A stretch of 64,000 bases of DNA from Merdibacter massiliensis (GCF_900155395.1 NZ_LT699717.1:62001-126000), one strand, 5' to 3'; positions 27,534 through 34,862 are shown, counted from the first letter of the stretch. Notes: generated by a model not told the origin, from the sequence alone. Numbers and translations: made by a program.

Positions 27534-27562
27534 TTGCTTGTTGTTTGAAATAGTGCTAGAAT
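27534..27562 (+). promoter_or_regulatory. Promoter of the lysine riboswitch operon
   Basis: TTGCTT (27534-27539), 17-base spacer, TAGAAT (27557-27562). The predicted start, near 27569, coincides with the first bases of the riboswitch P1 stem. Confidence 0.65.
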
Positions 27563-27570
27563 AATCTTAG

Positions 27571-27726
27571 CCTTGTTTTTAAGTAGAGGCGCGTTGATTA
27601 TGAGTAGTGCATGGGAGATCGAAAGTCCATGATCATGTACGAAAGGATGATACGCCGAAGCAATAAAGTCAAATTTATTGCTGGGGATATGTTTAATAGA
27701 CATATCACTGTCCTTTTTAAAAAAGG
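27571..27726 (+). ncRNA. Lysine riboswitch aptamer (L box)
   Basis: The conserved L-box blocks are present in order: GTAGAGGCGCG (27583-27593), GAGTA (27602-27606), the GAAA-capped stems, CGCCGAAGC (27653-27661), GCTGGGGATATG (27680-27691) and CATATCACTGTCC (27701-27713). P1 can form between CCTTGTTTTTAAG and the T/A run ending AAGG at 27726. Lysine binding in this class controls lysine transport or metabolism genes. It precedes a YfcC transporter and an M20 dipeptidase by about 90 bases. Confidence 0.93.
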
Positions 27727-27728
27727 AT

Positions 27729-27800
27729 GCGCTCTTAAAACAACAAAGTCCTCATAAATGAACGCCTTTGCTTGTTTTGAGATGCAAAGGCTTTTGTTTT
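27729..27800 (+). terminator. Expression platform of the lysine riboswitch (antiterminator and terminator)
   Basis: Terminator: GCCTTTGC (27764-27771) with GCAAAGGC (27784-27791), then TTTTGTTTT. Antiterminator: AAAACAACAAAG (27737-27748) can pair with CTTTGCTTGTTTT (27766-27778), removing the terminator's 5' arm. GCGCTCTTAAAACA (27729-27742) is itself complementary, with small bulges, to the aptamer 5' strand (27574-27592), giving a third, competing fold. Confidence 0.8.
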
Positions 27801-27813
27801 ATAGGGGGTTTTT

Positions 27814-29199
27814 ATGGAAACAAAAAGAAAATTCAAAATGCCGCATGCATATGTCATCATTTTTTCAATGACGATACTAACGGCCATCTTAGCGAACATC
27901 GTGCCTGCTGGTACTTTTGACCGCATCACCGATGCAGACGGCAATGAAGTTGTCGTGGCAGGCAGCTATCATCTGGTAGAACGTGTTGGCTGCAGCATTT
28001 TCGATATGTTCAAATCTATTCAGCTTGGATTTATTGACAGTGCACAAATCATCTTCTTCATCGTATTTGCGTATGCTTTTGTCTATGTCATGATCAAAAA
28101 CGGTACATTTGATGCTGTTGTTGGTTTCATCTTGCGCCGTGTCAGCAATCGCATCCACCTGATCATCCCGGTTTGTATGCTTTGCTTTGGCATCTTGGGA
28201 TCAACGATGGGCATGTTTGAAGAAACTTATGGTTTATTACCAGTCTTTATCTCGATTGCCGCTGTCATTGGCTATGATGCGATTGTTGGGGGCAGTATCA
28301 TCTATTTAGGGGTGGCGATCGGTTTTGCCTCTGCGACGATCAACCCGTTTACAATTGGAATAGCTCAACCGATTGCAGGTGTCCCGCTCTTCTCTGGTTT
28401 AGGTTATCGTGTATTCTGTTTTGTCATCTTTATGGGTATCGCTATCTGGTATGTTATGCACTATGCAAAGAAAGTAAAGAATGATCCGACAAAATCCTAT
28501 CTGTATGGTATTCCGCTTGAAATGCAGGAAGTTGGTTCTAAAGAAGAATTGATGAGCAAATCTTTTACTTTGACACATAAGATCAGCTGTCTGATTTTTG
28601 TCTTTACGATCGGAATGTTATTAGTCGGTACAATTCAGTTAAAATGGTATTTTGATGAGATTGCAACTTTATTCATCATCATGACGATCATTACGGGTTT
28701 AATTTCTCGTTACACGCCAAGTCAGATTTGTGAATTCTTCATTGAGTCCAGCAAAGAAATGATGTATGGTGCTTTGTTGGTTGGTATCAGCCGCAGTATC
28801 CCATTGATCATGGAAAATGCTTATATCATTGATACGATCGTCAACTGGTTGGCCAATCTGTTGCAAAGCTTCCAAGGTGTGACAAGCGCAATCGGCATGC
28901 TGCTCGTACAAAATATCATCAACTTCTTTATTCCAAGCGGTGCCGGTCAAGCACTTGTTACGATGCCGATCTTAGCTCCTGTTGGCGAAATGGTAGGTGT
29001 CAGCCGCCAGGTAAGCGTCTTGGCTTATCAATTTGGCGATGGCTTCTCCAATATCTTCTGGCCGACAAGTGTGTTCATGATGTGCGGTATCATGCGTCTG
29101 CCGATCAATAAATGGTATAAATTCGTGACTCCATTATTTGGTTTGATATTTATTGCAGAAATCGCCTTATTGGTTGTGGCAATGCTGATTGGTTATTAA
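27814..29199 (+). CDS. YfcC-family membrane transporter under lysine riboswitch control
   Basis: Integral membrane carrier of 461 residues with about 12 hydrophobic segments, from the YfcC / C4-dicarboxylate anaerobic carrier-like group. Recognisable stretches include ANIVPAGTFDR near the N-terminus, GSTMGMFEETYGL, and IPSGAGQALVTMPILAP with DGFSNIFWPTS near the C-terminus. Members are often annotated as amino-acid, arginine/ornithine or peptide carriers. Lysine riboswitch control and the downstream dipeptidase suggest lysine, a lysine dipeptide or an N-acyl-lysine; that is inference. GGGGG lies six bases before the ATG. Confidence 0.88.
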   Translation: METKRKFKMPHAYVIIFSMTILTAILANIVPAGTFDRITDADGNEVVVAGSYHLVERVGCSIFDMFKSIQLGFIDSAQIIFFIVFAYAFVYVMIKNGTFDAVVGFILRRVSNRIHLIIPVCMLCFGILGSTMGMFEETYGLLPVFISIAAVIGYDAIVGGSIIYLGVAIGFASATINPFTIGIAQPIAGVPLFSGLGYRVFCFVIFMGIAIWYVMHYAKKVKNDPTKSYLYGIPLEMQEVGSKEELMSKSFTLTHKISCLIFVFTIGMLLVGTIQLKWYFDEIATLFIIMTIITGLISRYTPSQICEFFIESSKEMMYGALLVGISRSIPLIMENAYIIDTIVNWLANLLQSFQGVTSAIGMLLVQNIINFFIPSGAGQALVTMPILAPVGEMVGVSRQVSVLAYQFGDGFSNIFWPTSVFMMCGIMRLPINKWYKFVTPLFGLIFIAEIALLVVAMLIGY

Positions 29200-29214
29200 A
29201 GGAAGAGGAAAAAC

Positions 29215-30378
29215 ATGGATATTCAACAATTATTATTGCAGGCAGAGGATGCTTATGCTGCTTCTATTGAAGAAATTAGTGAATTTATCTTTCAACATCC
29301 TGAATTGGGTATGGAAGAGTTTGAATCAAGCAATTACTTAGCAAACTGCCTTGCTTCAAACGGTTTTACGATCACAAAACCTTATTTAGGTTTAGAAACT
29401 GCGTTTCGAGCAGAGCTGCAATGCGGAAATGGCGGATGCAAGGTTGCTTTTCTTCCAGAGTATGATGCATTACCCGGATATGGTTCAAACAACGACGAAA
29501 ATGCGCATGCCTGCGGCCATAATTGGATCGCAGCCAGCACCCTGGGCGCTGCACTTGCATTAGCGAAAATCAAAGATCATTTCAATGGAACGATCGTTGT
29601 AATCGGAACTCCTGCCGAGGAAACGATCGGCGGTAAATGCGACCTGGTAGAGAAAGGTGCATTCGCCGATATTGATGCCGCAATCCAAATGCATCTCGGT
29701 GCAGAAAACAATATCAATATTTTTACATTGGCCATGGATTCCATAGAATTCAACTTTGCCGGCAAAGCCGCACATGCAGCTGCTTACCCGCAATTAGGCA
29801 TCAATGCATTGGATGCTGTACAGTTAATGTTTGCCGGTGTCAATGCACTTCGACAGCATATGCAAAGTGATGCACGTGTGGCAGGCATCATTACAAAAGG
29901 CGGTGTGGCCTGCAATATCGTACCGGATCAGGCAAGTTGCCGTTTCTATATTCGTGCTGCCAAAAGAAGTTACCTGAAAGAATTAACAGAAAAGATCATC
30001 AATTGTGCAAAAGGTGCTGCTTTGATGACTGGCGCCACACTAGAATATCATAATTTTGAAAATTCATATGATGATCTCATCTACCATGAAGGTTTACGTT
30101 CCTTATTGCGTAAGCATTTAGAGGAATTAGGTATTACCAATTTTGTAGAAGAAGATGCACAAGCAAGCGGTTCCAGCGATATTGGCAATGTATCACAGGT
30201 ATGTCCTTGCGTATATTGCGAGATCGATACTGGTGCCGCTCCGAAAGTATATGCGCACCAGGCTGATTTTTTAGACTATGTGCATGGTGAAAATGCACGC
30301 TTTACGCTCCATACCGCTGCCAAAGCAATGGCCTTAACTGCCCTTGATGTATTCTTGGATCCAAATATTGTAAAATAA
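29215..30378 (+). CDS. M20 family dipeptidase/amidohydrolase, PM20D2-like
   Basis: Zinc-dependent hydrolase of 387 residues with the M20D motifs: HACGHNW (metal ligands), GTPAEETIGGKCDLVEKGAF (catalytic glutamate pair), a dimerisation domain with KAAHAAAYP, and the C-terminal YAHQADFLDY histidine. The arrangement GTPAEE..GGK.DL.E.GAF and the HASAYP-like motif resemble PM20D2, a dipeptidase known to cut beta-alanyl-lysine and similar X-Lys dipeptides. It starts 16 bases after the transporter stop, so both follow the lysine riboswitch. Likely role: release of lysine from an imported conjugate. AbgA/hippurate-type hydrolysis is the alternative. Confidence 0.87.
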   Translation: MDIQQLLLQAEDAYAASIEEISEFIFQHPELGMEEFESSNYLANCLASNGFTITKPYLGLETAFRAELQCGNGGCKVAFLPEYDALPGYGSNNDENAHACGHNWIAASTLGAALALAKIKDHFNGTIVVIGTPAEETIGGKCDLVEKGAFADIDAAIQMHLGAENNINIFTLAMDSIEFNFAGKAAHAAAYPQLGINALDAVQLMFAGVNALRQHMQSDARVAGIITKGGVACNIVPDQASCRFYIRAAKRSYLKELTEKIINCAKGAALMTGATLEYHNFENSYDDLIYHEGLRSLLRKHLEELGITNFVEEDAQASGSSDIGNVSQVCPCVYCEIDTGAAPKVYAHQADFLDYVHGENARFTLHTAAKAMALTALDVFLDPNIVK

Positions 30379-30441
30379 AAAAAGAGGATGTAACAGTGAA
30401 GTGATTTCAAATTGTCACTACAACTGTTTCTCCTCTTTTTT
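30377..30441. terminator. Bidirectional terminator between M20 gene and PTS IIA
   Basis: Long interrupted stem: AAAAAAAGAGGA with TCCTCTTTTTT at the base, AACAGT with ACTGTT above it and AGTGA with TCACT at the top. A and T runs on both sides serve both converging genes. Confidence 0.85.
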
Positions 30442-30448
30442 ATATGAA

Positions 30449-32317: not shown

Positions 32318-32941
32318 ATGAAAAAGCAAAATAAAGCTGCCGCAAAGAGAGGGCAACAACCTATGATGATCGGTGGCTTCAATGTCTATCACGATGATAA
32401 AAATCGTACCATTTATTACAATCGATTTTCGAAAAGAGCCTATATTATAAAACCGAATGATTTTAGTACTTTCCAAACGTATAACATGCGTATCTTTCTC
32501 ACATTGGCTGTGATCATCGTTCTCTTTTCTTTTTCCGATACCTTTTTAGCAAATCCGGTCTTTGCAATTGGTGTCGGTATCCTGGTATTCGCTGTATTGC
32601 AGGTAAAATTTAACGGTTTTTTAAAACATTGCACCAGCATAGCCAATTTTAATACGAAGGAAGCTTATGGGCATATCCAGATACTAGCAGTAGAGGATAC
32701 AAAGAAAATTTTATTAAAGATCGTATTATTTGTTGCTTTAGCATGTTTGGTCGTTTATAACTCCTATGTGCAGAACTACAATACACTATCCTTGATCATC
32801 AGCTGGCTGTTAGCAGCTTATGCTACTTTCCAAGTGGCAATGGAATTGATCGCTCTTAATTATAAACGGAATCATCCTGATTTAGATCTGAGTTTTATCA
32901 AAGAGAATCATCCGAATAATAAGAAAAACAGAAGAAAATAG
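32318..32941 (+). CDS. Unknown membrane protein, four predicted helices
   Basis: A 207-residue protein with a basic N-terminus, a short soluble part, two membrane helices (about 60-95) and two more (about 135-180), then a Lys/Asn/Arg-rich tail (NKKNRRK). I recognise no family. The ATG at 32318 is preceded by AGGTG; the frame upstream of it has no support. The stop codon is two bases from the 3' end of the group II intron on the opposite strand. Confidence 0.7.
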   Translation: MKKQNKAAAKRGQQPMMIGGFNVYHDDKNRTIYYNRFSKRAYIIKPNDFSTFQTYNMRIFLTLAVIIVLFSFSDTFLANPVFAIGVGILVFAVLQVKFNGFLKHCTSIANFNTKEAYGHIQILAVEDTKKILLKIVLFVALACLVVYNSYVQNYNTLSLIISWLLAAYATFQVAMELIALNYKRNHPDLDLSFIKENHPNNKKNRRK

Positions 32942-33030
32942 AGTAGAGGGAAGAAATTAATCTTCGCCCCTCTCATTGCACCGTACGTACGGGTCTCGTA
33001 TACGGCGCTACATTTATATGTTAATACAAC

Positions 33031-34323
33031 CTATCTTAGATAGTATGCTAGAGGATTGACCAATCCAGGTCTTTCCTCTTTTCTTATGGCTAGAATATCC
33101 GCATTAAGTAAGAAATTAATTACATTCCCATTTGCTTGTTTATATAGGCCAAGCCTTGTATTCGCTACCGAGTAGAGTTGTTCATCACTGAAGTGATATG
33201 GCAATTTCTCATTCAACTTTTGTAGATTTTTATATATCCTCGGTGGTACTTTCCACTGTTTTAAGATGATGACCCTTATTTTGTGCCTTAACCATTGTCC
33301 AAATTCATCGATGAAGTTCTTCATCCTTCCGATTCGAAAGTAGTTTATCCATCCTTTGACGATTTGGTTTATCCTGGTGAATGTTTTAGCGTTGGTCTGT
33401 GCTACACATTTCTTTCGAATGAGTTCCTTTCGACATTTATCATACAGGCTTTTCTTACTCTTCTTTGTAGGAATACATTCCCATTTTGATGAGTTCTTCC
33501 AGTATGCAAAACCTAGAAAATTACTATTCGTTGGTCGTACTACCTTTGTTTTGGTTGCACTGACTTTTAGGAATAATTTTCTCTCCAGCCATGATGTGAC
33601 GGACTTCATCACTCGATTTGCTGCCATCTCGCTTTTAACGAAGATATTACTATCATCTGCATATCTCACAAAGCATAGTCCCCTTTCTTCCAGTTCCTTA
33701 TCAAATTTATCTAAGTAAATATTTGATAGAATTGGACTTAGAGGTCCTCCTTGTGGCATTCCTATGGCATTTGCTTTGACAAAACCATTTTCCATGATTC
33801 CTGCCTGCAGGAATTTACGAATCAAATGCAATGTTGTCGAATCATTCACATGCTCTCTAAGTATTGAAATTAATTTATCGTGATTTACTGTATCGAAGTA
33901 TGCTTCTATATCTAAATCGATGACCCATTCGTATCCTTCATTTAAGTAGTCCAGTGTTCGCAGGATGGCATCATGTGCACTCCTGTTTGGTCGGAATCCA
34001 AAACTATTCTCACTGAATTTACTATCATAAATATCTGATAACACTTGAGCTATCGCCTGTTGGATGACCCTGTCTACTACTGTCGGAATTCCCAGGGGTC
34101 TTTTCTTTCCATTTGATTTAGGAATATAGACTCTTCTTACAGGTTGAGGTTTGTATTTCTTCGCCAGTATCTGTTTCTTTATCTGTTCCCTATAGGCCTT
34201 GAAATACTCGTCAATTTCATCCACTGTCATCTTATCAATGCCAGGTACACCTTTATTACTTTTGACTCTTTTGATTGCCTCTTCGAGATTTTCATCTCTT
34301 AAGATCACTTCGATCAATTTCAT
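33031..34323 (-). CDS. ltrA: Group II intron reverse transcriptase/maturase
   Basis: A 430-residue intron-encoded protein with RT domains in order: KSNKGVPGIDKM, RPLGIPTVVDRVIQQA, FGFRPNRSAHDA, VIDLDIEAYFDTV, GMPQGGPLSPILSNIYLD, and the catalytic YADD in VRYADDSN. A maturase X region follows (INQIVKGWINYFR). There is no HNH endonuclease domain, as in class C introns. It helps splicing and copies the intron into DNA. The ATG at 34323 follows AAGGAG by nine bases; the frame extends upstream into intron RNA without a ribosome site. Confidence 0.95.
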   Translation of the reverse strand: MKLIEVILRDENLEEAIKRVKSNKGVPGIDKMTVDEIDEYFKAYREQIKKQILAKKYKPQPVRRVYIPKSNGKKRPLGIPTVVDRVIQQAIAQVLSDIYDSKFSENSFGFRPNRSAHDAILRTLDYLNEGYEWVIDLDIEAYFDTVNHDKLISILREHVNDSTTLHLIRKFLQAGIMENGFVKANAIGMPQGGPLSPILSNIYLDKFDKELEERGLCFVRYADDSNIFVKSEMAANRVMKSVTSWLERKLFLKVSATKTKVVRPTNSNFLGFAYWKNSSKWECIPTKKSKKSLYDKCRKELIRKKCVAQTNAKTFTRINQIVKGWINYFRIGRMKNFIDEFGQWLRHKIRVIILKQWKVPPRIYKNLQKLNEKLPYHFSDEQLYSVANTRLGLYKQANGNVINFLLNADILAIRKEERPGLVNPLAYYLR

Positions 34324-34862
34324 GTTGTTGCTTCTCCTTCCTTTTGTAAATATATTTGGAACCATTCCCTCTACCTTCATTCCCATGGGATTACGATTCC
34401 CACTTATGGAACTATCCTCGATTTCGAACTATCCAAACATTGCGCATGGTGAGCTGCACCATATAAACATTAGGTCCTTGGGTATAGATGTCTCTACCTA
34501 CTACGACCTCAGCTGACTTCTTGTGGTAAACCTTTTTCGACCGATGTTACCATCACTGATTTTAAAGATATTGGATTTCATCGTCCACAAGACCTCCCGG
34601 GGTAATTCACGAATCCTGTTTCTTTCACAACGTCCTGATTTACTGTCTTGGTTTTACGTTTACCTTTTGGACTTCGGTTTGATATGCAACCTTATCCACC
34701 ATTTAGCCTTATATCCGGTTTCTGTTCGTACGCTCGAAAGAATCGCTACACCACTTCCTCCATCCTCAACATCACTGTTAACGACTTGTGGTTCGCTACA
34801 CTTGGCGGTAACTACCTGTGGTTGGTTTATCTCCAACTGAATTCGTGCCATGCCCGGCACAC
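34324..34862 (-). ncRNA. Group II intron 5' ribozyme region (domains I-IV)
   Basis: The 540-base stretch before the maturase start is the structured 5' part of the intron, from GTGTG at 34862. Short reading frames in it are not genes. Domain V and VI lie after the maturase at 32943-33010. Confidence 0.8.

Follow-up and report, generated by a model that had tools for sequence, protein, structure and literature searches.

A lysine riboswitch operon joining a YfcC-type carrier with an M20D amidohydrolase in Merdibacter massiliensis, and its possible role in lysine scavenging

What would a lysine riboswitch serve when the genes behind it encode a YfcC-type membrane carrier and an M20D hydrolase? 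This question is raised by a locus on contig 12 (62001-126000) of the 2.47-Mb genome of Merdibacter massiliensis; this whole stretch of 64,000 nucleotides is called the window here, and positions are counted from its first letter. In an earlier note, the locus had been read as an operon under a lysine riboswitch whose two products import a lysine conjugate and release lysine from it. For the operon, the closest homologues with a name come from Erysipelotrichaceae and Faecalitalea, and the Holdemania- and Beduini-type genomes belong to the same order as the host. The features of the operon are as follows.

27534..27562, + strand: candidate extended -10 promoter, TTGCTT-17 nt-TAGAAT, TGC before the -10 (8/12 by eye)
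27576..27742, + strand: lysine riboswitch aptamer (L-box, RF00168; cmscan 102.4 bits, E 3.9e-26, model 1-182)
27733..27782, + strand: antiterminator, arms 27733-27743 and 27772-27782 (inverted repeats; fold -17.1 kcal/mol)
27756..27801, + strand: intrinsic terminator, arms 27756-27771 and 27784-27799, U-rich tail after them (inverted repeat; fold -15.4 kcal/mol)
27814..29199, + strand: YfcC-family (DcuC / TC 2.A.118-like) membrane carrier, 461 aa (PF03606, NF008611, tree)
29215..30378, + strand: M20D amidohydrolase/dipeptidase of PM20D2/HmrA type, 387 aa (TIGR01891, HmrA, PM20D2)
30378..30442, + strand: hairpin with U tract at the operon end (fold -26.6 kcal/mol)

The near-complete L-box described earlier is borne out by the covariance search, in which the score lies above the RF00168 gathering score of 30 bits and the full length of the model is covered; all five of the core motifs tested are found in the aptamer. 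The terminator is also present, and it is absent from the list of the pattern scanner because its 12-base loop exceeds the scanner limit of 8. The antiterminator overlaps P1, whose 3′ strand it shares, and is thus in competition with P1 as well as with the terminator, that is to say, an expression platform competing with P1 exists in the leader. The promoter said to lie at the 5′ edge of the aptamer is weaker than claimed: the candidate sequence is there, but it falls under the threshold of the promoter scan, and is plausible only. Judged from its layout, the leader would act as an OFF switch, with lysine closing P1 and freeing the terminator, and we infer with good support that expression of the operon is repressed by lysine. 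At related loci, a terminator-like hairpin was found within 220 nt of the riboswitch in 32 of the 37 riboswitches scanned, but the rule was loose, so some of these hairpins may be due to chance. At its other end, the operon is closed by the hairpin after position 30378.

The order and the families of the two genes stand as first read, while the gap between the ORFs is 15 bases and not 16. The carrier scores 281 bits with Pfam DcuC (PF03606, gathering score 23.1), and its 279 bits with the NCBIfam YfcC equivalog NF008611 are under the cut-off of 500; it is therefore described as YfcC-like rather than as the equivalog of E. coli YfcC. The sequence search against solved structures gave no match to YfcC. 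The enzyme passes the M20D amidohydrolase model TIGR01891 (249 bits, cut-off 153.75), and among solved structures it comes closest in sequence to HmrA, at 223 bits, and to human PM20D2, at 192 bits. The predicted structure model, of low pLDDT at the active-site loops, matches HmrA with Z 36.7 and rmsd 4.3 over 375 residues and PM20D2 with Z 35.8 and rmsd 4.3 over 368 residues, so that the two scores are tied, with the next rows clearly lower, near Z 28. The identity to both is also about equal (33-37%). Thus, the label "PM20D2-like" holds insofar as PM20D2 is among the closest solved relatives, but HmrA has about the same claim, and the exact substrate cannot be deduced by homology.

Residues C100, H102, E136, H160 and H348 are conserved in all riboswitch-linked M20D sequences, and from knowledge of the family we take them to be the Cys/His/Glu/His/His ligand set of a two-metal site. 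Tyr314 of PM20D2 aligns with Tyr285 of the window enzyme, a position at which most of the riboswitch-linked enzymes have one of Tyr and Phe; since it is Phe in 20 of the 37, the specificity is not simply that of PM20D2. In addition, E282 and D286 are invariant among the riboswitch-linked enzymes and differ in both HmrA and PM20D2, and in the ABC-linked sister clade Tyr or Phe stands in place of D286; these two residues may bear on substrate specificity.

The neighbourhood survey that the earlier note had proposed has now been carried out. Genome contigs were scanned with an alignment of nine relatives, which gave 80 named M20 loci; the riboswitch positions in those genomes were mapped onto these loci, relatives from the order were added, and duplicates were removed. 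The arrangement L-box–YfcC–M20D occurs at 37 distinct loci including the window (35 of them among the 80 named loci, with two C. difficile loci counted by riboswitch motif only). They are spread over Erysipelotrichaceae, Fusobacterium, Peptostreptococcaceae and Oscillospiraceae, and among the taxa are Holdemania, Faecalitalea, Beduini, Fusobacterium gastrosuis, C. difficile, Metaclostridioides, Terrisporobacter, Oscillospiraceae and Solobacterium. With about 2.6 L-boxes per genome, chance would give about 0.1% per locus (same-strand 2-kb upstream window) against the observed 35 of 80, so chance pairing is excluded. At three further loci (L083, L086, L088), the riboswitch lies 100-138 nt before M20D and YfcC is absent. 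The M20D tree requires at least seven changes of the L-box–YfcC label, spread over several clades, and therefore the pairing has been retained or re-formed in several lineages; the L-box association recurs in separate branches, including L-boxes directly before M20D without YfcC. These 37 loci and the three with M20D alone tie the enzyme to lysine supply, which upholds the link first proposed, and a lysine-releasing role of the M20D enzyme has good support. The survey of the order covered 148 genomes, and in it each of the five YfcCs with 49% identity or more follows closely on a riboswitch and is itself followed by M20D. Contig ends cut three YfcC loci (L057, L118, L124). The pairing also exists in other forms: L056 is a YfcC-M20D pair with no riboswitch, and L105, L110, L115 and L125 have the order M20-YfcC in genomes without any L-box. 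An Rfam search of the loci lacking an L-box found no other amino-acid leader adjoining the M20 gene.

The genome of the host contains two further L-boxes. One heads lysA-dapF-dapA-dapB-dapH (dapB assigned by NCBIfam, the other three dap genes from their sequence), with a separate M20D gene lying divergently beside this operon, and the other heads an SBP3 amino-acid ABC importer (read from sequence). The DapH-like acyltransferase suggests that the host uses the acetyl branch of lysine synthesis, and the lysA-linked M20D is likely the acetyl-DAP deacetylase. Therefore, synthesis and probably the uptake of free lysine are covered elsewhere, and the YfcC-M20D unit is a third branch of lysine supply, separate from these two, which probably draws on a different source of lysine.

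On this basis, a lysine-repressed scavenging operon can be proposed, to which we give about an even chance. At high cytoplasmic lysine, the aptamer would close P1 and so tie up the antiterminator's 5′ arm, the terminator would form, and transcription would end before the genes; at low lysine, the antiterminator would form instead, and both the carrier and the hydrolase would be made. The carrier would then take up a small lysine amide (X-Lys dipeptide or N-acyl-lysine), and M20D would cut it in the cytoplasm to free lysine, in the manner of AbgT and AbgAB for p-aminobenzoyl-glutamate. That the carrier imports the amide cleaved by M20D has moderate support, and that YfcC carries a conjugate rather than free lysine is the least certain part of the model. 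Conjugate import is consistent with the separate L-box ABC importer of the host and with other L-box pairs of carrier and amide hydrolase. Counted in favour of the model are the full-length L-box, the competing antiterminator, the 37 loci, the three M20D-only loci, the joining of YfcCs of two clades with one M20D subfamily, the lysine context of the host, the other L-box pairs, the L-boxes before peptide importers where M20D lacks YfcC, a YfcC cluster of E. faecium and the kinship with HmrA and PM20D2. Counted against it are the free Arg/Orn transport and high Lys affinity of ArcE, the place of the C. difficile L-box YfcC with arc carriers, the position of arcD-arcT in a free-arginine pathway, YfcC-M20D without an L-box in some close relatives, and Phe at the Tyr285 position in 20 of the 37 enzymes.

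The main rival is the transport of free lysine. That is, YfcC might be a transporter or exchanger of lysine or cationic amino acids of the ArcE kind, and M20D a cytoplasmic X-Lys dipeptidase acting on peptides brought in by other transporters, so that the two would work in parallel rather than in series, both induced by lysine shortage; this is a real possibility, but the less probable one. The strongest counter-evidence to conjugate import belongs here: ArcE of S. pneumoniae (TC 2.A.118), a characterised YfcC-type carrier, is an exchanger of free Arg and Orn that also shows high affinity for Lys (PMC5300872), and in arcD-arcT a carrier of this type stands together with a putative dipeptidase (PMC4129364). 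Moreover, in the YfcC tree, whose branches are long, the L-box carriers of C. difficile and Terrisporobacter group with the arc-operon YfcCs (support 96/87). Because ArcE moves free amino acids and the C. difficile carrier groups with the arc-operon ones, the operon alone gives no assignment of YfcC as a conjugate carrier, which the earlier note had held out as a specific new assignment. The L-box before M20D alone in three genomes, and before SBP5 peptide importers in others, is likewise in keeping with parallel action. However, the host already has its L-box-controlled SBP3 importer, and in the same long-branched tree the window carrier does not group with the arc-operon YfcCs; it falls with other close M20D-linked YfcCs in a clade separate from the ArcE group. 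The persistent pairing, in which some loci have two or three M20Ds in tandem after a single YfcC, also somewhat better fits action in series.

Two other explanations leave the substrate or the pathway different. M20D enzymes include N-acetyl-DAP deacetylases, and with the host seemingly on the acetyl branch, the operon's M20D might be a deacetylase of N-acetyl-DAP (or another acyl-DAP) in lysine synthesis with YfcC as an accessory carrier; this is very unlikely, as that role is expected of the M20D divergent beside the L-box lysA operon, the enzyme studied here has HmrA and PM20D2 as its closest relatives, and a biosynthetic deacetylase would need no dedicated carrier. It is also improbable that the operon handles a lysine-free compound, such as an Orn/Arg amide or a toxic metabolite, under an indirect lysine control. 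What speaks for such a compound comes from titles: the title of the original report, as cited in PMC13311154, places PM20D2 in metabolite proofreading, and that of entry 8zel names a PM20D2 mutant crystal soaked with beta-alanyl-ornithine. Lysine riboswitch control in several M20D clades and before M20D alone speaks against it, and repression by lysine would be the wrong logic for detoxification.

In E. coli abgABT, the carrier AbgT is combined with the M20D hydrolases AbgA and AbgB for p-aminobenzoyl-glutamate, and no lysine riboswitch is involved. The likeness to the window lies in the pairing of a distantly similar secondary carrier with M20D amide hydrolases, whereas the window carrier stays under the gathering score of the AbgT family PF03806 (19.7 against 27 bits), so that it may work like AbgT but is not a member. 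The streptococcal arcD(arcE)-arcT operons share a YfcC-type carrier and a putative dipeptidase (PMC4129364, PMC5300872), but they belong to the arginine deiminase pathway, are regulated differently, and have carriers of the ArcE clade, outside which the window YfcC lies. Human PM20D2 (beta-alanyl-lysine dipeptidase) and S. aureus HmrA keep the five predicted metal ligands, while E282 and D286 are replaced in both.

The closest known case is C. difficile CD3100-3099, listed in a 2024 review as lysine riboswitch–yfcC–M20D with yfcC called uncharacterised (PMC11477304), and the arrangement as such is therefore no longer new. Gene order, strand and riboswitch are the same, and the M20D is 54-55% identical to that of the window (L068, L070-L072), but the YfcC is only about 37% identical and groups with carriers of the ArcE type. 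Our literature search met lysine riboswitches with an amidohydrolase or M20 gene only in this review and in operon lists (Thermotogales). As far as that literature shows, what is new is the breadth of the unit, its variants with M20D alone or with other carriers, and the tie of this M20D subfamily to lysine. If the scavenging model is true, it offers a testable substrate class for YfcC carriers and for bacterial M20D enzymes of PM20D2/HmrA type, which are uncharacterised in C. difficile and in many gut anaerobes. The recurrence of the switch–carrier–enzyme unit in many anaerobes suggests a way to recover lysine from lysine-containing compounds.

Other carriers and hydrolases are also found behind lysine riboswitches. 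At L154 in genome G104, the L-box is followed by a YfcC of a third clade and a CPG2-like M20A enzyme; at L137 (G179:C144), it precedes a carrier of NhaC type and an M20 enzyme of ArgE/DapE type (M20A). Among the five lysine riboswitches of genome G179, there are also some that precede M20D alone or Dpp-type importers. SBP5/Dpp-type peptide importers are headed by L-boxes at L136, L139 and L143 (G179, G154), and the M20D of both genomes is without YfcC. At L158, an L-box is followed by AGCS (Na/Ala-type symporter) and Amidohydro_3, with the same layout at L159-L161, and at L166 by an amino-acid permease and Amidohydro_3. Altogether, Amidohydro_3 (PF07969) stands behind an L-box in 11 of the 148 genomes of the order, nine with one gene-sized gap and two directly (coordinates joined); the intervening gene is identified for L158-L161 and L166 only, and further sites are G024:C52, G141:C67, G114:C10, G136:C4, G037:C3 and G020:C21. 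The combination of L-box, symporter or permease and Amidohydro_3 is thus a candidate second lysine-amide salvage unit. Within the amidohydrolase superfamily, it is the M38 family that holds the known epsilon-lysine acylases (PMC11511702), so by analogy acyl-lysine is a reasonable guess for the substrate. A wider pattern, in which L-boxes govern a widespread salvage of bound lysine through carriers unrelated to one another, namely YfcC (three clades), AGCS, APC, NhaC and SBP5 peptide ABC carriers, with M20D, M20A and Amidohydro_3 hydrolases, and YfcC is a true importer of lysine conjugates, is put forward tentatively, at somewhat short of an even chance; if true, it would make the lysine riboswitch a guide to enzymes that free lysine from amides, peptides and acylated lysine in the gut.

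Some separate observations were made on related genes. In the Solobacterium-type loci L038, L116, L117 and L122, two or three diverged M20Ds stand in tandem behind one riboswitch and one YfcC. On E. faecium plasmids (L174, L178, L179), a YfcC only 35% identical and with no riboswitch lies beside a SIS-domain protein, fructoselysine 6-kinase, a GntR regulator and an amidohydrolase gene that IS16 has broken up; no other carrier lies there, and the cluster hints independently at conjugates for YfcC. HmrA-like M20D enzymes of 35-40% identity (L040, L041, L042, L043) occur in operons led by a T-box, together with ABC transporters of methionine or polar amino acid type (MetNIQ-like in L040/L041). 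A unit comprising the whole M20D family under amino-acid leaders was considered, but these enzymes form a sister group with other likely substrates, outside the lysine unit, suggesting other amino-acid-specific amide salvage units.

Around the operon in the window, an AraC-type regulator lies upstream and a galactosamine-type PTS/AgaS cluster downstream on the opposite strand, both of which look unrelated to it. The window also contains a group II intron at 32938-34781 on the - strand, matched by three Rfam intron domains, with a reverse transcriptase-like ORF (33031-34386) inside it.
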